In this document: one piece after another, positions 3,269-58,433 of the stretch
How positions within the stretch are numbered: the stretch's first letter is position 1
How the letters are laid out: every line of letters starts with the position of its first letter
From: Streptacidiphilus sp. P02-A3a
Lineage (GTDB): Bacteria; Actinomycetota; Actinomycetes; Streptomycetales; Streptomycetaceae
Length of the DNA: 64,000 nucleotides
Assembly (NCBI RefSeq): GCF_014084105.1
Contig: NZ_CP048289.1
Location: 7,325,922 to 7,389,921 of the forward strand
Direction: 5' to 3'
The notes under the pieces: generated by a model
The model's database searches: none
What the model was told of the DNA's origin: nothing
The model's input: only the letters and a program-made list of their open reading frames with translations
Made by a program: the position numbers and the translations under genes

Positions 3269-4631
3269 GCCGACGCGCCTCCCAGGGCAGTGGTGTTCCG
3301 TGGACCAGGCGTCGGCTGCGCAGGTAGCCGAGCGGGCCGTAGAGCAGGCCCCGGCGCTGGAGCCGGGACAGCCGCTCGGGCCAGGCGTGCGCGTGCCGGG
3401 GCTCGGCCGGGCCGCCGCCGACCGGCTCCGGCCTGGCGCCGGTGTGGCGCAGCGCGTAGCGGATGCCGCCGGGCAGTCGGCGCAGCAGCGCGGGCAGCAT
3501 CCGCGGCTCCCGGGCGACGGCCGCGGTCAGGTAGGCGCCGAGGCCCGCGCCGTAGCCGAAGGCCTGGGCGTCCAGGTCCTCCGGGCGGTCCCGGTGGTGG
3601 TGCCAGACCAGGGCCCGCGGCTGGTAGACCAGGTGGTGGCCGTTGACCACGGCCCGGAAGAAGGACAGCAGGTCGTCGCCGCCCCGGGCCGGGGTGCCGG
3701 TGCCGGTGGCCGGGTCGAAGCCGCCGAGGTCGCGCAGGGCCCGGGTGCGGAAGGCCATGTTGGCGCCGGAGCCGAAGCGTCCGGCGGTGAACGGGAACAG
3801 CGGCTCGTCCGGCGGCGGGCGGTCGAGCCGCCAGGCGCGGCGCCGGAAGCCCTTGGTGAAGCCGCCGTGGGCCTCCAGCATGACCTGGGTCCTGGTGCGC
3901 AGCCGGGCGGGCAGGATCAGTCCGGTGACGCAGCCGACGGCGGGGTCGGCCGCGCTGCCGTCGGCGTCGGCGAAGGCCGCCACCAGCGCCCGCAGCCAGT
4001 CCGGGTCGAGCACCACGTCGTCGTCGGTGAAGGCGGTGATCTCGCCGAGGGACTCGGCCAGGCCGCGGTTGTGGGCGGCGGCGAGGCCGCGGACCGGCTC
4101 CCGGACGTAGCGGACCCGGTCGGCGTGGCGCTGCCGGACCAGGGTGCGGGTGGCGTCGGTGACCGGGTCGTTGTCGACCACCACCACCTCGATCCGCGGG
4201 TAGCGCAGCGCGGCCACCGAGTCCAGGCAGCGGGCGAGCGGTTCCGGCCGCTCGCGGGTGGCGATCACCACTGTGACCAGCGGCTGGTACGGCTCGGCCA
4301 CCGGCGTCGCCGCGGCGGACTCCGCGGCGGCGCGGCGCAGTTCCGGTCCCAGCTCGCGGCGGGCTGCCTCGGCCAGCAGCCGCGCCGGGTCCTCGGACTC
4401 GCCGACGGTGGCCTGGACCAGGCCGACCGGGTGTCCGCCGACCCGGGCCAGGGCGAGCACCCGTCCGGCCGGTACCGGGCCCGGTTCGCCGACCCGGCGC
4501 AGTACCGGCGCCTGTCCGCCGTCGCCGAGTTCCAGTTCGGCGACCTCGATCGGGGCGTGGTCGGGGTTCAGCCGCAGCGGCGGCCCGGGTGCGGCCGCCG
4601 GGTCCGGTGGCCGCGGCTCGGTCTGCTTCAC
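3258..4631 (-). CDS. Glycosyltransferase family 2
   Basis: A 457-residue protein. An N-terminal ~110-residue extension precedes a GT-A domain starting at VTVVIATRERPEPLARCLDS. The metal/nucleotide-sugar motif is visible as FTDDDVVLDPDWL, followed by RGGDDLLSFFRAVV, which resembles the ED acceptor/base region. No membrane segments are seen, so it probably works on the cytoplasmic face. The ATG overlaps the stop of the upstream GT2 gene (ATGA), showing translational coupling. It is part of the minus-strand polysaccharide operon. Sugar donor and acceptor cannot be predicted. Confidence 0.85.
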   Translation of the reverse strand: MKQTEPRPPDPAAAPGPPLRLNPDHAPIEVAELELGDGGQAPVLRRVGEPGPVPAGRVLALARVGGHPVGLVQATVGESEDPARLLAEAARRELGPELRRAAAESAAATPVAEPYQPLVTVVIATRERPEPLARCLDSVAALRYPRIEVVVVDNDPVTDATRTLVRQRHADRVRYVREPVRGLAAAHNRGLAESLGEITAFTDDDVVLDPDWLRALVAAFADADGSAADPAVGCVTGLILPARLRTRTQVMLEAHGGFTKGFRRRAWRLDRPPPDEPLFPFTAGRFGSGANMAFRTRALRDLGGFDPATGTGTPARGGDDLLSFFRAVVNGHHLVYQPRALVWHHHRDRPEDLDAQAFGYGAGLGAYLTAAVAREPRMLPALLRRLPGGIRYALRHTGARPEPVGGGPAEPRHAHAWPERLSRLQRRGLLYGPLGYLRSRRLVHGTPLPWEARRHGH

Positions 4632-51179: not shown

Positions 51180-51330
51180 GGCCGTGCTTCTCCCTCAACG
51201 CTTACCGCGACGCGACGGAACCGGCCCGCCACGCTCTGCCCCATCGACACTATCCCGCGGCGGCGGCGCGGGCGCAGTTGCTCACCCGGACGCGCCACGA
51301 GTCGGGCGCGATCAGCGAGGACACGACTGC

Positions 51331-51377
51331 GGACGACCGCCCCCAGCGGGCCCGAGGGGCGCTGGGGGCGGTCGTCC
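51331..51377. terminator. Very strong hairpin terminator
   Basis: A perfect 18-bp stem, GGACGACCGCCCCCAGCG / CGCTGGGGGCGGTCGTCC, with an 11-nt loop, 18 bp beyond the stop of the DUF1906-like gene on the minus strand. It should end transcription of the secreted-protein genes. Confidence 0.85.
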
Positions 51378-51394
51378 GTGCGAGTACGGGTCCG

Positions 51395-53923
51395 CTAGCC
51401 GAGGGCGGGGGTGCCGAAGTCGGTGGTGACGTCGGAGACGTGCCAGACACCGGCCTGGGAGTAGGTGTTGTCCAGGTCGCCGTTGGCCGTGGCCGCGGTC
51501 AGGAAGTCGACGTTGCCGTTCGGCTCCACATCCGCACCGATCGAACCCGACGCAGCCGGAGTACCCAGGCTGGACGTCAGGTCACTGGTGTGCCAGCCGT
51601 TGAAGTCGTTCGTGTTCATCACATCACCGTTGGCCGCGTTGATCGTCAGCCAGTCCACATCACCGTTCGGCTCCACCAACGCCGTCGGACCACCCGACAC
51701 CACCGGCGCACCGAACCCCGACGACACATCCGTCACATGCCACGCACCAGCCTCCTTGTACGTGTCGTACAGGTGCCCGTTCGCCGAAGCCACGCTCAGG
51801 AAGTCAACATTCCCGTTCGGCTCCACATCCGCACTCAACGACCCCTTCCCCACCGGAGTACCCAGGCTGGACGTCAGGTCACTGGTGTGCCAGCCGTTGA
51901 AGTCGTTCGTGTTCATCACATCACCGTTGGCCGCGTTGATCGTCAGCCAGTCCACATCACCGTTCGGCTCCACCAACGCCGTCGGACCACCCGACACCAC
52001 CGGCGCACCGAACCCCGACGACACATCCGTCACATGCCACGCACCAGCCTCCTTGTACGTGTTGTACAGGTGCCCGTTCGCCGCGTCCACCGTCAGGAAG
52101 TCAACATTCCCGTTCGGCTCCACATCCGCACTGATCGAACCCGACGCAGCCGGAGTCCCCAACGACGACGTCAAGTCACTGGTGTGCCAGCCGTTGTAGT
52201 CATTCGTGTTCATCACATGCCCGTTGGCCGCGTTGATCGTCAACCAGTCCACATCACCGTTCGGCTCCACCAGAGCCTTCGGCGTACCCTCCACCTCCGG
52301 CGCACCATAACTCGCAGTCACATCAGTGACATGCCACGCACCCGCCTCGTTGTACGTATCGATCAAGTGCTCATTCGCAGCATCGACAGTCAGAACGTCC
52401 ACATTCCCGTTCGGCTCCACCACCGTGTTCGACACCGGCGCGCTCCCCGCCACGAACACCGACGTCGCAGCCGACACCGCACCCCACTGACCAGCCGAAT
52501 TCTCCGCCTTGACCGAAACCGAATGCACCCCCGGAGTAACACCCGTCGTATTCCACGTCACCTGGTACGGCGAAGAAGTCGCCGTACCCACCACACTCCC
52601 GTCAACCAGGAACTCCACCTCACTCGCCGCACTCGACACACTCGCCGACAACGACACATCACCACGCAACACCGCACCAGACGCAACACCCGTCAACGAA
52701 GCCGTGGGCGGTGTACCGAGGGAGATGTCCAGATAGTCCTCGTCGATGGCGATCGACGATCCACCATAGGTCTGCGAGACGTTCCCTGCGTACTGGTGGG
52801 CGCGCTGATGGTTGCTCCAGTCGCCGCTGGGGATCACCGAATCGTTCGTGTCGGCCACGTTGTCCCAGTCGGCGTCCCACACTGCGTCCGGCTCGGGGTA
52901 TCCGGTACCGGTCTGGCTGACCAGGTCCTTCATCGCCGAGCTTGAGGAGCCGTAGACGCCCGACTCGTAGCCCTTGGCGTGCAACTCGTCGGTCCAGGCG
53001 GACAGGAAGCTGAGCACGCTGGCGCTGTAGGTGGACGAGTAGTTCTCCATGTCCTCGTAGATCAGCGTGCCCGGGCCGAACCCCAGGCCCTGTGCCTGGA
53101 CAACCGCGTCGTCGGCGGCGGCCGTGCCCTGGGTCGTGGGCGAGGTGATCTGGTCGGCGAAGAGTCCTGCGTAGGTCGGCATGAAGTGCCAGCCCGCCGA
53201 CGCTTGCTGCTGCACCCAGGCCGGGGTCAGGTCGGCCTGCTGGCAGCTCATTTCCGCGCCACCGATGTAGATCCCGACCGCGCTGTACGGTGAATCAGCC
53301 TTCCAGTTGGCCATGCTGCCGGCATCCGGCGCGGTGCAGGCGTCGAAACCCTCCCCGCTGTCGTTGGTGGATGCCGCGGCCAGGGCCTGGGCCTCGGCCA
53401 GCGGAGCTCGCGGGGCCACCTGAGCACGGACCTTGGGGGCACCCGTGGGTAGGGCGGCCTTGGCGAGGATGGCCCGGATGAGCTGCTTGTCCGTGTTGTA
53501 GGTTCCGGTCACTCGAACATTCGCACCGGTGGCCAGGTACTGGTGGTCAACGGACTGGTCCAGGGTTCCCTGCTCCGAAGCGGAGTTGGTGCTCGGTTGC
53601 ACCAGCAGCGCCTCGGTGCGCCCGAAGATGTTCGCCGGGCACTTCTGATCCGTGCCCGGGCTACCCAGATACAGGGCATGCTGGTCGAATCGGACGCAGG
53701 TGCTGGGGTGGGCCTTGAGGTTGATCACTGCCCAGGTGGCCGGGACGCTGAACCGGTGGCCGAGGTAGTTGACGGTCTTCGTCGGCGTGGTCTTCACGAC
53801 CGGGGACTTCGGGGCCGTGGGCTTCGGGGCCGCCTGTGCGGCGCCGACCGAAGTGGCCCCCAGTACGGCGACCACCGGAAGGACGGCGAGAGCGCCGCGA
53901 AGGGAGAGGCGTTGACCGAACAT
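51395..53923 (-). CDS. Secreted modular protein: DUF1906-like glycoside hydrolase-like domain, Ig-like domain, seven C-terminal repeats
   Basis: An 842-residue exported protein. The Sec signal is MFGQRLSLRGALAVLPVVAV with cleavage near AQA|A. Residues ~45-180 are an unknown domain. Residues ~190-405 match DUF1906/Rv2525c-like proteins: FDACTAPDAGSMANWK, VGIYIGG, FMPTYAG, TLIYEDMENY and SIAIDEDYLDISLG, a GH25-like barrel. An Ig-like domain (~408-500) follows. Then come seven ~48-residue repeats beginning VEPNG-[ND]-VD, the last ending FGTPALG. The C-terminal 436 codons are almost identical in DNA to those of the next secreted gene. A cell-wall or polysaccharide role is inferred. Confidence 0.85.
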   Translation of the reverse strand: MFGQRLSLRGALAVLPVVAVLGATSVGAAQAAPKPTAPKSPVVKTTPTKTVNYLGHRFSVPATWAVINLKAHPSTCVRFDQHALYLGSPGTDQKCPANIFGRTEALLVQPSTNSASEQGTLDQSVDHQYLATGANVRVTGTYNTDKQLIRAILAKAALPTGAPKVRAQVAPRAPLAEAQALAAASTNDSGEGFDACTAPDAGSMANWKADSPYSAVGIYIGGAEMSCQQADLTPAWVQQQASAGWHFMPTYAGLFADQITSPTTQGTAAADDAVVQAQGLGFGPGTLIYEDMENYSSTYSASVLSFLSAWTDELHAKGYESGVYGSSSSAMKDLVSQTGTGYPEPDAVWDADWDNVADTNDSVIPSGDWSNHQRAHQYAGNVSQTYGGSSIAIDEDYLDISLGTPPTASLTGVASGAVLRGDVSLSASVSSAASEVEFLVDGSVVGTATSSPYQVTWNTTGVTPGVHSVSVKAENSAGQWGAVSAATSVFVAGSAPVSNTVVEPNGNVDVLTVDAANEHLIDTYNEAGAWHVTDVTASYGAPEVEGTPKALVEPNGDVDWLTINAANGHVMNTNDYNGWHTSDLTSSLGTPAASGSISADVEPNGNVDFLTVDAANGHLYNTYKEAGAWHVTDVSSGFGAPVVSGGPTALVEPNGDVDWLTINAANGDVMNTNDFNGWHTSDLTSSLGTPVGKGSLSADVEPNGNVDFLSVASANGHLYDTYKEAGAWHVTDVSSGFGAPVVSGGPTALVEPNGDVDWLTINAANGDVMNTNDFNGWHTSDLTSSLGTPAASGSIGADVEPNGNVDFLTAATANGDLDNTYSQAGVWHVSDVTTDFGTPALG
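51397..52708. repeat. 1312-bp direct repeat, copy A (Ig-like plus seven-repeat module)
   Basis: Copy A aligns without gaps to 54076-55387 (offset 2679). The only difference I found is at 52394 (C; T in copy B), giving Val versus Ile. Identity includes synonymous sites and stops sharply at the start of the Ig-like domain and at the stop codon (TAG here, TGA in copy B). Codons are unusual for the genome (many TTG, GGT, GAT, CAT, ACT). Confidence 0.95.
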
Positions 53924-54073
53924 GTTTATGACACATCCTCAACAATGGGCATGTTGTGCCGGCCGATCGGTCGGCATCGATGAAAGGTCTCGCTGATGCG
54001 GACTCACTGAGCCGCCCGGGGACCGGTGCCGGCCGAGGTCGCGCTCGGACCGGCACCAGTCGTTTCGCTGTGG

Positions 54074-56608
54074 TCAGCCGAGGGCGGGGGTGCCGAAGTC
54101 GGTGGTGACGTCGGAGACGTGCCAGACACCGGCCTGGGAGTAGGTGTTGTCCAGGTCGCCGTTGGCCGTGGCCGCGGTCAGGAAGTCGACGTTGCCGTTC
54201 GGCTCCACATCCGCACCGATCGAACCCGACGCAGCCGGAGTACCCAGGCTGGACGTCAGGTCACTGGTGTGCCAGCCGTTGAAGTCGTTCGTGTTCATCA
54301 CATCACCGTTGGCCGCGTTGATCGTCAGCCAGTCCACATCACCGTTCGGCTCCACCAACGCCGTCGGACCACCCGACACCACCGGCGCACCGAACCCCGA
54401 CGACACATCCGTCACATGCCACGCACCAGCCTCCTTGTACGTGTCGTACAGGTGCCCGTTCGCCGAAGCCACGCTCAGGAAGTCAACATTCCCGTTCGGC
54501 TCCACATCCGCACTCAACGACCCCTTCCCCACCGGAGTACCCAGGCTGGACGTCAGGTCACTGGTGTGCCAGCCGTTGAAGTCGTTCGTGTTCATCACAT
54601 CACCGTTGGCCGCGTTGATCGTCAGCCAGTCCACATCACCGTTCGGCTCCACCAACGCCGTCGGACCACCCGACACCACCGGCGCACCGAACCCCGACGA
54701 CACATCCGTCACATGCCACGCACCAGCCTCCTTGTACGTGTTGTACAGGTGCCCGTTCGCCGCGTCCACCGTCAGGAAGTCAACATTCCCGTTCGGCTCC
54801 ACATCCGCACTGATCGAACCCGACGCAGCCGGAGTCCCCAACGACGACGTCAAGTCACTGGTGTGCCAGCCGTTGTAGTCATTCGTGTTCATCACATGCC
54901 CGTTGGCCGCGTTGATCGTCAACCAGTCCACATCACCGTTCGGCTCCACCAGAGCCTTCGGCGTACCCTCCACCTCCGGCGCACCATAACTCGCAGTCAC
55001 ATCAGTGACATGCCACGCACCCGCCTCGTTGTACGTATCGATCAAGTGCTCATTCGCAGCATCGACAGTCAGAATGTCCACATTCCCGTTCGGCTCCACC
55101 ACCGTGTTCGACACCGGCGCGCTCCCCGCCACGAACACCGACGTCGCAGCCGACACCGCACCCCACTGACCAGCCGAATTCTCCGCCTTGACCGAAACCG
55201 AATGCACCCCCGGAGTAACACCCGTCGTATTCCACGTCACCTGGTACGGCGAAGAAGTCGCCGTACCCACCACACTCCCGTCAACCAGGAACTCCACCTC
55301 ACTCGCCGCACTCGACACACTCGCCGACAACGACACATCACCACGCAACACCGCACCAGACGCAACACCCGTCAACGAAGCCGTGGGAATCGGCACAGGG
55401 GTGTCGCTGGGGTTGTGCAGCCACTCGACGGTTCCGCCCTCCCCGGTGACGTCCGCGACGTTCCAGTCAGTGACAGTGGCGGAGTTGTAGCCGTTCGAAT
55501 CGGGGAAGTTCTGGTCGACGAAGTAGACCGTGCCATTGCCGGAGGAGTTGACATCGGACTGGTAGACCACCCCGGTGTGTCCGTCATCGTTGGTGTTGAC
55601 GTTGAAGCTGAGAACGTCACCCGGCACCGGCGCGGTGGTGTCACCGTTGCTGTACAGGTCGAACATGCTGGAGTAGGCGTTGTAGGCGTTGGGCACGACC
55701 TGGTTGCCGTTGCCGCCCTTTCCGAGGAAGCCGTAGCGCTGGACCAGGTAACGGTCACTCAGGTCCGCGCACTGCCACTCGTCCTGCTCCACGCCGGGGA
55801 CGTCATCATGGATGGAGTTGTTGCCGCTGCAGTCCTGAAGGCCCATGAAGCTCTGGTTCTCGAGGGTTCCGCTCCCGTTGCAGGTCTGGGTCCACCAGGA
55901 GGGCATCCCCAGATTCGCGCCGAGCGGGACAGTGGCGTTCGTCCGGATGCCGAGGCGGGCCGGCGCCGGGGCGGCCTTCAGCTTGGCGAGGTCGACCGTG
56001 GTCTTGGCGCCACTGTCAGGGCTGGTGACCACCAGCTGAGCGCCGAACGCCTTGGGCAGGCGGCTCTGGTCGTGCTGAAGGTTGAAGACCCAGGTGCGGT
56101 TCCCCTGGTCCACCACCCACTGGACGGTCTCGATCGTGGTGACCGAGCCCTTCTTGCCGGTCATGTCGCCCTGGCTGTGCCGGACGACGCCGATGACCTT
56201 CTGACCGAAGATGGTAGCCACCGGACCCTTCTGGCTGCTGTGCAGCGCCGCCCGCCAGGCCGCGCTGTCACCCGCCTTCGAGACCGGGAACACCGACTCG
56301 GGCAGCTGCTGGCCGAAGGGGACGGCGGTGACCGAGAAGTAGCTGAAAGGCGAGTCCTGGACCGCGGAGGCGACCTGCACCCCGGTCCCCGGCGCGGCGA
56401 CAGAGAACGCGGCTGAGGGTATGTCCGGGCTGCTCACCTTCAGGGCCACATTGTCCAAGGTGAAGGCATGCACAGCGGCGTTCACCACCGCCGCCGGCTT
56501 CGCGACCGCGGCGAACGCCGCGGGGGCGGTGCCGAGCCCGATGCCGGCGGCGGTCACGACGGCGACGGACACCGCCAGGAGTTTGCTCGCATGGGATGAC
56601 GTAGGCAT
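54074..56608 (-). CDS. Secreted modular protein: CHAP-like amidase domain, Ig-like domain, seven C-terminal repeats
   Basis: An 844-residue exported protein. The signal covers ~1-34 (KLLAVSVAVVTAAGIGLG, cleavage near AFA|A). Residues ~40-235 are unknown. Residues ~238-400 look like a CHAP/NlpC-type Cys amidase, with candidate Cys280 in DEWQCADLSDRYL, PGDVLSFNVN and His344 in DDGHTGVVYQ. Then come the Ig-like domain (~409-500) and seven VEPNG repeats, identical to those of the neighbour but for one residue (Ile for Val). The ATG follows GGGAG. It lies 48 bp after the 104-residue gene and may share its transcript. A role in peptidoglycan cleavage is inferred. Confidence 0.85.
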   Translation of the reverse strand: MPTSSHASKLLAVSVAVVTAAGIGLGTAPAAFAAVAKPAAVVNAAVHAFTLDNVALKVSSPDIPSAAFSVAAPGTGVQVASAVQDSPFSYFSVTAVPFGQQLPESVFPVSKAGDSAAWRAALHSSQKGPVATIFGQKVIGVVRHSQGDMTGKKGSVTTIETVQWVVDQGNRTWVFNLQHDQSRLPKAFGAQLVVTSPDSGAKTTVDLAKLKAAPAPARLGIRTNATVPLGANLGMPSWWTQTCNGSGTLENQSFMGLQDCSGNNSIHDDVPGVEQDEWQCADLSDRYLVQRYGFLGKGGNGNQVVPNAYNAYSSMFDLYSNGDTTAPVPGDVLSFNVNTNDDGHTGVVYQSDVNSSGNGTVYFVDQNFPDSNGYNSATVTDWNVADVTGEGGTVEWLHNPSDTPVPIPTASLTGVASGAVLRGDVSLSASVSSAASEVEFLVDGSVVGTATSSPYQVTWNTTGVTPGVHSVSVKAENSAGQWGAVSAATSVFVAGSAPVSNTVVEPNGNVDILTVDAANEHLIDTYNEAGAWHVTDVTASYGAPEVEGTPKALVEPNGDVDWLTINAANGHVMNTNDYNGWHTSDLTSSLGTPAASGSISADVEPNGNVDFLTVDAANGHLYNTYKEAGAWHVTDVSSGFGAPVVSGGPTALVEPNGDVDWLTINAANGDVMNTNDFNGWHTSDLTSSLGTPVGKGSLSADVEPNGNVDFLSVASANGHLYDTYKEAGAWHVTDVSSGFGAPVVSGGPTALVEPNGDVDWLTINAANGDVMNTNDFNGWHTSDLTSSLGTPAASGSIGADVEPNGNVDFLTAATANGDLDNTYSQAGVWHVSDVTTDFGTPALG
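54076..55387. repeat. 1312-bp direct repeat, copy B
   Basis: Partner of 51397-52708, with one visible difference (T at 55073). It encodes the Ig-like domain and seven VEPNG repeats of the CHAP-like protein. The sequence outside both borders is unrelated, so the two genes are mosaics that share one C-terminal module. This suggests recent duplication or ongoing gene conversion. Confidence 0.95.
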
Positions 56609-56656
56609 GACATATCTCCCTAGATGGACTTGCGCGAAAGATCGGAGGGCGTTCGG

Positions 56657-56971
56657 TCAGAGTCTTTCGGGTGGCGCGGTGGCGTCCGGTCCGGTCGACT
56701 GCGGATCAGCACCGGGCAGGAATCCGGAGGCCAGCAGAGGTGAGGCGGCGTAGCAACGGCGCAGCAGTTCGAATGCTTGCTCCTCGGGACTGGCGAGCAG
56801 CCGCTCTCTGAAGAAGAACAGCAGGTGGACCCGGTCGGAGCAGCTGTGCGCACTGACGTGTTCGAGCTGGTCGGCCTGGGTGGCGTGGGCCCACAGAATG
56901 TCCAGGATCTGCCCCTTGGAGGGGATGTCCGCCCCGCCCGGATTCCGGCAGACCAGGGAGATGTGGACCAT
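56657..56971 (-). CDS. Small protein between the secreted peptide and the secreted hydrolase
   Basis: A 104-residue protein without signal peptide: HISLVCRNPGGADIPSKG, ILDILWAHATQADQLEHVS, SDRVHLLFFFRERLLASPEEQ and AFELLRRCYAAS. It looks like a compact alpha/beta ferredoxin-like unit with a disordered Pro/Ala tail. The start is ATG 56971; a GTG two codons upstream is possible. It begins 11 bp after the stop of the 54-residue peptide gene, so the two are almost surely co-transcribed. I do not know the family. Small proteins of this look occur beside TrmB/LuxR-type regulators in streptomycetes, as far as I recall. Confidence 0.6.
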   Translation of the reverse strand: MVHISLVCRNPGGADIPSKGQILDILWAHATQADQLEHVSAHSCSDRVHLLFFFRERLLASPEEQAFELLRRCYAASPLLASGFLPGADPQSTGPDATAPPERL

Positions 56972-56982
56972 GTGCACGCCGT

Positions 56983-57147
56983 TCAGCCCCAGGTCTGGTC
57001 TGCGGATGAGGCGGAGGCGCCGACCGACACGGAGACCGCAGCGGTCGGGTGGACGGCGGCCGAAGCAGCGAGGGCCTGTACGCCAAGAATGGCGACAAAT
57101 CCGGCGACAGCGAGGACAGCCGAACGAAGAAGAACGGAAGAGGACAT
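56983..57147 (-). CDS. 54-residue Sec-exported peptide precursor divergent from LuxR regulator
   Basis: Encodes a short precursor beginning MSSSVLLRSAVLAVAGFVAI, a classic signal peptide with likely cleavage at ALAASA|A, and ending SADQTWG. The mature part would be ~23 residues, rich in Ala, Ser and Val, with no Cys. AAAGGGAA lies 7 nt before the ATG. It is divergent from a TrmB/LuxR-type regulator and followed by a 104-residue gene. Size, export signal and position fit a secreted signalling peptide. That function is an inference and no homologue is named. Confidence 0.6.
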   Translation of the reverse strand: MSSSVLLRSAVLAVAGFVAILGVQALAASAAVHPTAAVSVSVGASASSADQTWG

Positions 57148-57443
57148 AGCGGTTCCCTTTCGGGGACACGGACACGTGGTCGGAACGGAGGTGAAGGCCT
57201 CGGGTCACCCCCGCCGACATCTGCCTGCCCTGCCGGCGACTGCCTTCTGCGGAAGACTCTGCCGCATCCGTGACCAGCGCAGAAGGGCTGTCGGGTGGCA
57301 CCGACCTGCCTGACACTTTGCTGCCAGCCGATAACCACACGTGGCCGAACTCTCGACCGAACCCGCTTGATCGCCGCCCTTGGCCCTGGGAAAATGACCG
57401 AATTGAAAAGTAGTCGTCCGGGCAATATCGCGACGGGGGAACA
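57148..57443. other. Divergent promoter region between peptide and regulator genes
   Basis: A 296-bp gap. The part near 57390-57430 (GAAAATGACCGAATTGAAAAG) is AT-rich for this genome and could hold promoter elements. GGGGGA precedes the regulator ATG. No strong inverted repeat was recognised, but the regulator would be expected to bind here. Confidence 0.45.
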
Positions 57444-58433
57444 ATGGTCACGCTCACCGCGCTGGGGCTCAGCGCAGACGCCGAGCAGGTTTACGCAACC
57501 ATGCTCGACAAACCCGACTTCGGCGTGGCTGAGCTGATCGCTTCGCTGGGCATCGGGGAGAGTAGGGTCCGTGACGCGTTGGACAGCCTGGCGGAGTTGA
57601 TGCTCGTCCGCGTCTCGCACGAGCGCCCCGGCCAACCACGTGCGGTCAAGCCCGAGTTGGGGCTGGCCAACATGCTGCTCCGGCAGGAGGCAGAGCTGGC
57701 CGAGCAACAGGCACGGGTGGCCGCCTCACGGGCGGCGGTCACCCGGCTGGTCGCCGCCCGGGCAGACAGTCAGAGCGCCGGTGGCGCACACGGCGAGCGC
57801 CTGCTGGGCATGGACGCGATCCAGGACCGGCTGGAGTGCATGACCCGCATCATGACCACGGAATGCATGGGAGTGCACCCCGGCGGCGCCCAGCGCCCCG
57901 AAGACCTCGCGGCCGGACGTCCGTTGAACGCCGAGGCCATGAGCCGCGGCGTGGTGTTCCGCACCCTCTACCAGGACAGCGTCCGTAACGACCCGGCGAC
58001 CATCGCCCACGCCAACTGGCTTCTGGAGCAGGGGGGTGAGGTCCGCACGGCACCGCTCGTCCCGCAGCGTCTGGTCATCAACGACCGGGCCCGCGCCCTG
58101 GTCCCGATCGACCCCGCCGACAGCCGCAAAGGTGCGCTCTACGTCACCGAACCCGGCCTGGTCAGCGCCCTGGTCGGGCTCTTCGAACAGGCGTGGGCCA
58201 CCGCCGTCCCGCTGGGTGCCACCCGCGCCCAGGATCCGGAAACCGGGCTGACCCGGACCGAGCAGGAGATCCTGCGGTTGCTCGGTCGCGGCATGACCGA
58301 CGAGGCCGTGGGGCACCGGCTCGGCATCTCGCTGCGCACAGTACGCCGCCAGGTCGCCTCGGTCATGGAGCGGCTGGAGGCCGCCAGCCGCTTCGAGGCC
58401 GGAATCAAGGCCACTCAGAAGGGGTGGATCTGA
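57444..58433 (+). CDS. LuxR-type regulator with N-terminal TrmB-like domain
   Basis: A 329-residue regulator. Residues ~3-70 form a TrmB-like winged helix (DAEQVYATMLDKPDFGVAEL, VRDALDSLAELMLVRVS). A helical linker (~75-105) is followed by a PLD-like sensor region with HPGGAQRPEDLAAGRPLNA and TLYQDSVRNDPATIAHANWL. The C-terminal LuxR HTH (~265-325) is LTRTEQEILRLLGRGMTDEAVGHRLGISLR. Streptomycetes hold many such regulators, mostly uncharacterised. This one is divergent from a secreted-peptide gene and probably controls it and the secreted proteins beyond. The ATG at 57444 follows GGGGGA. Confidence 0.85.
   Translation: MVTLTALGLSADAEQVYATMLDKPDFGVAELIASLGIGESRVRDALDSLAELMLVRVSHERPGQPRAVKPELGLANMLLRQEAELAEQQARVAASRAAVTRLVAARADSQSAGGAHGERLLGMDAIQDRLECMTRIMTTECMGVHPGGAQRPEDLAAGRPLNAEAMSRGVVFRTLYQDSVRNDPATIAHANWLLEQGGEVRTAPLVPQRLVINDRARALVPIDPADSRKGALYVTEPGLVSALVGLFEQAWATAVPLGATRAQDPETGLTRTEQEILRLLGRGMTDEAVGHRLGISLRTVRRQVASVMERLEAASRFEAGIKATQKGWI

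Follow-up and report, generated by a model that had tools for sequence, protein, structure and literature searches.

A candidate autoinducing peptide pheromone module with a TrmB/LuxR-type regulator in Streptacidiphilus sp. P02-A3a, and its family of W-tail propeptides

Peptide quorum sensing of the RRNPP type is described from Firmicutes, with PlcR-PapR, ComR and AloR among its examples, and the part of one published account on which we draw gives it five defining criteria (PMC10075063). The same part describes the signals of Actinomycetota as typically enzyme-made small molecules. For Streptomyces coelicolor, the portion consulted of another report describes the use of peptide signalling, together with peptide import in streptomycetes by ABC transporters of the BldK type (PMC3924187). 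Here we describe a locus in Streptacidiphilus sp. P02-A3a, at positions 51395..58433 of a 64,000-nucleotide stretch of DNA (the window, from a 9.33 Mb genome in a single contig), in which the gene of a small exported protein, P0002, is the divergent neighbour of the gene of a TrmB/LuxR-type regulator, P0001. It is followed by a conserved gene, P0003, and by two genes for large secreted proteins, P0004 and P0005.

Set beside the RRNPP systems, as far as PMC10075063 was consulted, the locus has a small propeptide (54 amino acids, where 10 to 100 are specified) that is predicted from hydropathy to be exported by Sec, and this propeptide adjoins the gene of a cytoplasmic regulator of 329 amino acids, within the specified 250 to 500; the conserved unit is likewise C-terminal, and the candidate target genes lie nearby. 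It differs in its regulator, which resembles TrmBL2, ends in a LuxR-type helix-turn-helix (HTH) and lacks the peptide-binding TPR repeats of the RRNPP receptors (none by Pfam at E 1). It differs also in the many multi-copy precursors among its relatives, in the extra conserved gene P0003 and in its hosts, which are Actinomycetota. Because the TPR repeats are absent, we regard the module as one that would work like RRNPP systems but is not a member of them. With TrmB and TrmBL2 (PDB 5box, 5bpi) the likeness covers the whole TrmBL2 chain, to which residues 4-255 of P0001 align, but P0001 adds the C-terminal LuxR HTH and is linked to an exported peptide, not to sugar genes. The LuxR solos of Gram-positive bacteria, as presented in the consulted parts of PMC5539150 and PMC4748050, similarly have an HTH of the LuxR type and no cognate signal synthase; in the present case a candidate ligand gene adjoins the regulator gene, and the sensor domain is TrmB-like. 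Peptide signalling with peptide import, as in BldK-type uptake, is a further point of likeness (PMC3924187, in part).

From the precursor anatomy, the repeated conserved tail, the linkage to the regulator, a shared operator-like dyad and the secreted neighbours, we liken the locus to a pheromone system, and we put at roughly 60% the probability that it is a self-contained autoinducing peptide pheromone module read by a TrmB/LuxR receptor. The module is known here from sequence and computation alone. In the mechanism that we propose, the propeptide would be exported by Sec, and its C-terminal W-unit, within SADQTWG, would be freed by proteolysis and accumulate outside the cell. The freed peptide could then re-enter through an oligopeptide permease and bind the regulator encoded divergently, at its alpha/beta domain of the TrmB type; the regulator would act at the dyad and switch, presumably by activation, the operon of propeptide, P0003 and secreted hydrolase.

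On balance, and by a slighter inclination, we favor the broader proposal that such modules form a new class of peptide quorum sensing, with encoded and often multi-copy W-motif propheromones, TrmB/LuxR one-component receptors and several channels per genome, controlling secreted wall-lytic and carbohydrate-binding proteins. The occurrence of W-tail proteins beside one regulator family suggests an undescribed form of inter-bacterial signalling in antibiotic-making streptomycetes. If this is true, part of the large set of actinobacterial LuxR solos would gain ligands, antibiotic producers would have a language of genetically encoded linear peptides, each genome with several channels, and there would be a handle on their secreted wall hydrolases and on the other linked genes. 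For each of many LuxR-type regulators the prediction supplies a linear peptide that is short and can be synthesized, which makes the question directly testable.

The evidence begins with the propeptides. Signal peptides were called by a hydropathy-based score for Sec-type export, by which P0002 scores as Sec-type. At each P0003 locus the best upstream signal-peptide open reading frame (ORF) was chosen without any requirement on its tail, and duplicates were merged. By this rule a short signal-peptide ORF lies upstream of P0003 in 103 of 124 P0003 loci, with mostly 4-12 bases from its stop codon to the P0003 start. Around homologues of P0001 and P0003 the propeptides have one layout: the signal peptide at the N-terminus is followed by a linker free to vary, and the end is conserved, with SLGWGG, LTWG and GIGWD as examples. 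We sorted the 103 tails into the classes WG (58), WD (31), CxxC (8) and other (6, some of them wrong ORF choices); the last tryptophan (W) stands 1-2 residues from the end in 83 propeptides, and W is absent in 3. Mean pairwise identity is 0.55 in the tail versus 0.18 in the linker for the WG class (57 rows) and 0.67 versus 0.13 for the WD class (17 rows). The original prediction had named missing conservation of the short ORF beside homologous regulators among the results that would refute it, and had asked whether mature tails resembling SADQTWG are conserved; the ORF is conserved, and the tail is the conserved part of it. The W-tail mini-proteins are thus, as judged by sequence comparison, a widespread family with a propheromone layout.

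Many of these precursors carry the unit more than once. At least two tandem units were found by pattern in 19 of the 103; one of these, L087, is a wrong ORF, leaving 18 of 103 with two to five copies. They include GIGWD three times (L171) and five times (L193), SIGWD three times (L195), GSIGWD four times (L204) and SLGWG three times (L154 and L187). Propeptides are present as well in loci with no P0003 match in the fetched stretch (L229, L230, L257, L263 and L266), among which L263 has nine DSTW units, L266 two DITW and L230 two DSIW. DDSGWQ occurs twice in L302, whose genome belongs to the same class but to another family, and some relatives of the window propeptide, such as L263, exceed 100 amino acids. 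As a control, in 1.77 Mb of fetched loci, W[GD] with at most one further residue ends 76 of the 155 short signal-peptide-like ORFs within 1.5 kb of P0003, compared with 9 of 274 elsewhere, and these nine look by eye like additional members of the family or a duplicated copy. This control and the tandem units rule out that the short ORF is a product of chance or an annotation artefact.

Some family members already stand in the databases as hypothetical proteins: WP_266637118 (GIGWD three times), WP_304381994 (DDVTWGG), WP_331734796 (DGFGW three times), WP_331741917 (DDMGWG), WP_257858317 (DDLGWQ) and WP_327348933 (TTGWQ). The propeptide ORF of L307 lacks annotation. A propeptide was seen in 7 of the 10 plasmid loci viewed, with none found in H26 and H5 and with H31 outside the scan. 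Two plasmid-borne systems, L305 (1258-4741) and L307 (1425-4750), have a larger gene set in common: a propeptide (DGFGW three times, DGYGW), a P0003-like gene, two enzymes that look cupin-like by eye, a protein of about 95 residues and a major facilitator superfamily transporter. We found no published account of the W-tail family in the literature searched, the scope of which excluded most subscription papers and preprints.

A divergent TrmB/LuxR regulator lies within 2.5 kb in 82 of the 103 propeptide loci; in the other 21 the regulator is distant or outside the stretch (17), on the same strand (3) or convergent (1). Because P0003 was the bait of this survey, regulators were also sampled directly, in 25 genomes with 85 regulators that had enough flank to be counted, the criterion now being a W among the final nine residues of a signal-peptide ORF. 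Such an ORF is divergently upstream of 15 of the 85 (5 of 15 close and 10 of 70 distant regulators), and it is also found upstream on the same strand (1), downstream on the same strand (4) and downstream on the opposite strand (3). Two of the downstream cases, L100 and L014, look genuine. Near paralogues in the window genome there are five further W-tail ORFs (L005/L100, L007/L102, L008/L103, L013/L104 and L014). On a quickly built tree with 86 regulators, motif class requires 8 changes against a shuffled mean of 32.6, and 0 of 200 shuffles were as low. The regulator of L083 separates a five-unit GAGWD precursor (3654-3935) from its P0003 homologue, the two being some 3 kb apart, and distances within the module therefore vary.

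The regulator itself combines the features of two families. Pfam assigns TrmB (PF01978; 29.8 bits, cut-off 25.6) to a winged helix at residues 4-71 and GerE/LuxR (PF00196; 37.4 bits, cut-off 23.5) to a C-terminal HTH at residues 269-319, and a profile of 74 homologues aligns with TrmBL2 at E 2.7e-17. The AlphaFold2 (AF2) model has a predicted local distance difference test score (pLDDT) of 92.4 and a predicted template modelling score (pTM) of 0.69, and it places in order the winged helix, a long helix (70-111), an alpha/beta domain (118-253) and the C-terminal HTH. P0001 thus has both the winged-helix domain and the TrmB-type effector region of the TrmB family. Candidate specificity positions 53, 180 and 245 were considered and dropped, their fit being partial and failing in some lineages. 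A phage-borne version was likewise set aside, there being no P0001 match among 50,697 phage-collection records at E 1e-10.

A further link between regulator and propeptide comes from the DNA between them, in which the loci have a common dyad, TGKCACCAAG-N11-CTTGGTGMCA. With at least 15 of 20 matches, it is present at spacing 11 in 29 of 66 non-redundant regions, as against 0.8 in dinucleotide shuffles, and at spacings 5-10 and 12-17 in 0-6 regions. Because the seed was derived from the tested sequences, we made a cross-test with a separately trained matrix, built from 15 sites in 22 regions with regulators more distant from P0001; among these regions are a small number of WG-tail loci, including L076 from the same genus, and the window site was left out. 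Of the other 44 regions, 21 score above the 99% null and 26 above the 95% null, and 27 have their best site 140-165 bp ahead of the ATG, versus 8% in shuffles. The window site matches the family consensus at 16 of 20 positions, 148 bp ahead of the propeptide start and 117 bp ahead of the regulator start, and has a p of about 0.001 (null of single-base shuffles) by the matrix not trained on it. When up to 3 mismatches are allowed, a fitted pattern finds this site and no other in the window, with 1.1 expected by chance. Genome-wide, with up to 2 mismatches allowed, it matches 4 sites versus 11 for the reversed control, and the only exact match is the window site, to which the pattern had been fitted. 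Since the genome yielded no second convincing copy by this pattern, any regulon looks local. An operator ahead of the second secreted gene was considered and rejected, the candidate there being only a hairpin stem. Between dyad and propeptide start, WG-clade intergenic regions contain a second inverted repeat, GCGTC-N8-GACGC in 8 of 44 and GCGCC-N8-GGCGC in 7 of 44, whose paired letters change together and so point to a leader hairpin or to the site of another protein.

The original prediction had also placed secreted proteins in the system, and this extends well beyond the window: with the first gene after P0003 identified by a simple ORF rule in 87 loci, 68 of the 87 score as secreted, against a background of 279 of 1161 genes in L135-L213. 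Pfam scans of ten downstream proteins gave CHAP in two and FG-GAP in three, a protein of 2068 residues showed RHS repeats, and NLPC_P60 in one and a ricin-type lectin in one fell just under the cut-off; for four of the ten no convincing Pfam family was found. In the GIGWD-type loci L192, L196, L200, L203, L204 and L209 the next gene encodes a secreted-scoring protein of 2064-2077 residues; the one scanned, from L192, has RHS repeats.

P0003 is, by the comparisons made, an undescribed conserved family: no Pfam or NCBIfam family fits consistently across its members, and sequence comparison gives no relative in the PDB. With a profile at E 1e-4 it was found in 91 of 200 genomes of Streptomycetaceae, and many of these have between two and six copies. 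A single-protein search at E 1e-3 found it in 25 of 100 relatives, including 9 of 15 genomes of the same order's other families, and a class-wide draw at E 1e-6 matched 13 of 296 genomes, two of them beyond the family. It may be a cytoplasmic partner of the propeptide or of the regulator.

Several results weigh against the pheromone reading and are gathered here. In the direct sample L228, L233 and L251 look spurious, which reduces the paired regulators to about 12 of 85, and most distant TrmB/LuxR regulators are without a W-tail partner by that test. The co-inheritance of motif and regulator is predicted by linkage alone, and thus argues for stable pairing, not for recognition; no regulator position was found to switch consistently with the WG or WD class. 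We know of no receptor with a fold of the P0001 type that binds peptides. By the ORF rule used, 21 of the 124 P0003 entries are without a propeptide, and the closest paralogue in the genome itself (68%) keeps P0003 and the regulator with no propeptide found between them. A synonymous-substitution test of the tail gave no support either way, the tail codons being nearly fixed. As to the presumed output, residues 277-368 of P0004 match the cell-wall hydrolase LytN weakly (E 0.0083), and Pfam finds no CHAP domain there.

Three other explanations of the W-tail must be set against a pheromone. The peptide might be an effector, whether an antimicrobial or a binder of metal, wall or carbohydrate, or else a ribosomal natural product, with the regulator controlling production only and P0003 serving immunity or processing. 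Such a role would suit the CxxC[WG] tails of 8 of the 103 propeptides, the two ATP-grasp genes behind the regulator in L216 and the YcaO-like gene about 2.3 kb out on the side of the P0003-like gene in L309, and multi-core precursors are known among ribosomal natural products too. We nevertheless think it unlikely, given that the unit is very short and, to judge by its sequence, not enriched in basic residues, in contrast to typical antimicrobial peptides, that Pfam scans of the window set and of the ten downstream proteins show no modification enzyme, and that the propeptide goes with a single family of regulators.

It is distinctly improbable, in our view, that the regulator senses something else and that the short ORF is a leader-type reporter of export or translation coupled to P0003, its nascent or unexported form being sensed within the cell by P0003 or the regulator. 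The tight spacing of propeptide and P0003 agrees with this, as does the regulator, a one-component protein whose fold is cytoplasmic; in a leader ORF one would not expect a linker free to vary and a C-terminal unit that is conserved and repeated, however, and the ORF is found in the loci named above that lack a P0003 match. Least probable of all, we believe, is that the W-tail serves as a tag for sorting, anchoring or stability on a small secreted protein whose function is unrelated, its link to the regulator reflecting control only: the unit is nearly always C-terminal, as a tag would be, but internal tandem copies with variable spacers would be left unexplained.

Table 1. Features of the locus and of its closest paralogue (window positions unless another locus is named)
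Feature	Position	Strand	Description	Basis
Regulator P0001	57444..58433	+	329 amino acids; TrmB and LuxR HTH	Pfam, profile, AF2 model
Operator-like dyad TGGCAGCAAA-N11-GTCGGTGCCA	57296..57326	-	Divergent promoter	Family consensus, matrix
Propeptide P0002	56983..57147	-	54 amino acids; signal peptide, linker, W-tail	Translation, family with conserved tail
SADQTWG tail codons	56986..57006	-	Predicted signal unit, mature ends approximate	Identity of tail versus linker
P0003	56657..56971	-	104 amino acids; undescribed conserved family adjoining propeptide	Profile search, translation
P0004	54074..56608	-	Secreted, 844 amino acids; CHAP-like residues 277-368, Ig-like Big_7, repeat region	Translation, Pfam, LytN match
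P0005	51395..53923	-	Secreted, 842 amino acids; Rv2525c-like glycoside-hydrolase-type domain at residues 206-397, Big_7, repeat region	Pfam
Strong hairpin between P0004 and P0005	54021..54061	-		Fold of 53940-54080, z -4.73
Terminator-like hairpin 3' of P0005	51331..51377	-		Fold of 51310-51400, z -6.06
Closest paralogous locus	L078 6990-7360, own genome near 9.25 Mb		Regulator and P0003 kept

The arrangement of the window locus (Table 1) is largely as first described. Pfam, translation and the hydropathy score bear out a TrmB/LuxR regulator divergent from a 54-codon signal-peptide gene ending in SADQTWG, 296 bp away, and the 104-residue gene does start 11 bp past the stop codon of the latter. 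Both large proteins are secreted by prediction. The DUF1906-like barrel claimed for one of them agrees with a PF08924 domain in P0005 (E 8.2e-47), the Rv2525c-like glycoside-hydrolase family that we take to have been formerly named DUF1906; the CHAP-like cysteine amidase claimed for the other is borne out weakly, by the LytN match, and P0004 has the cysteine and histidine motifs QCADLSD and GHTGVV. The very strong terminator said to close the set is real, the 91-nucleotide stretch behind P0005 folding at -62.3 kcal/mol. The gene set holds as one locus, but a single transcript from 57147 to 51395 is doubtful because of the strong hairpin in the 141-nucleotide stretch that separates P0004 from P0005. 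The 48 bases between P0003 and P0004, by the same RNA folding, are without stable structure.

P0004 and P0005 have in common a 1311-bp C-terminal repeat region (54074-55384 and 51395-52705, both on the - strand), in which the copies show a single internal difference and two more in the stop codon. GC content at third codon positions is 0.78 in this repeat, below the 0.87 and 0.90 of the 5' parts of P0004 and P0005, and from its sequence the region looks like a recent duplication or gene conversion.

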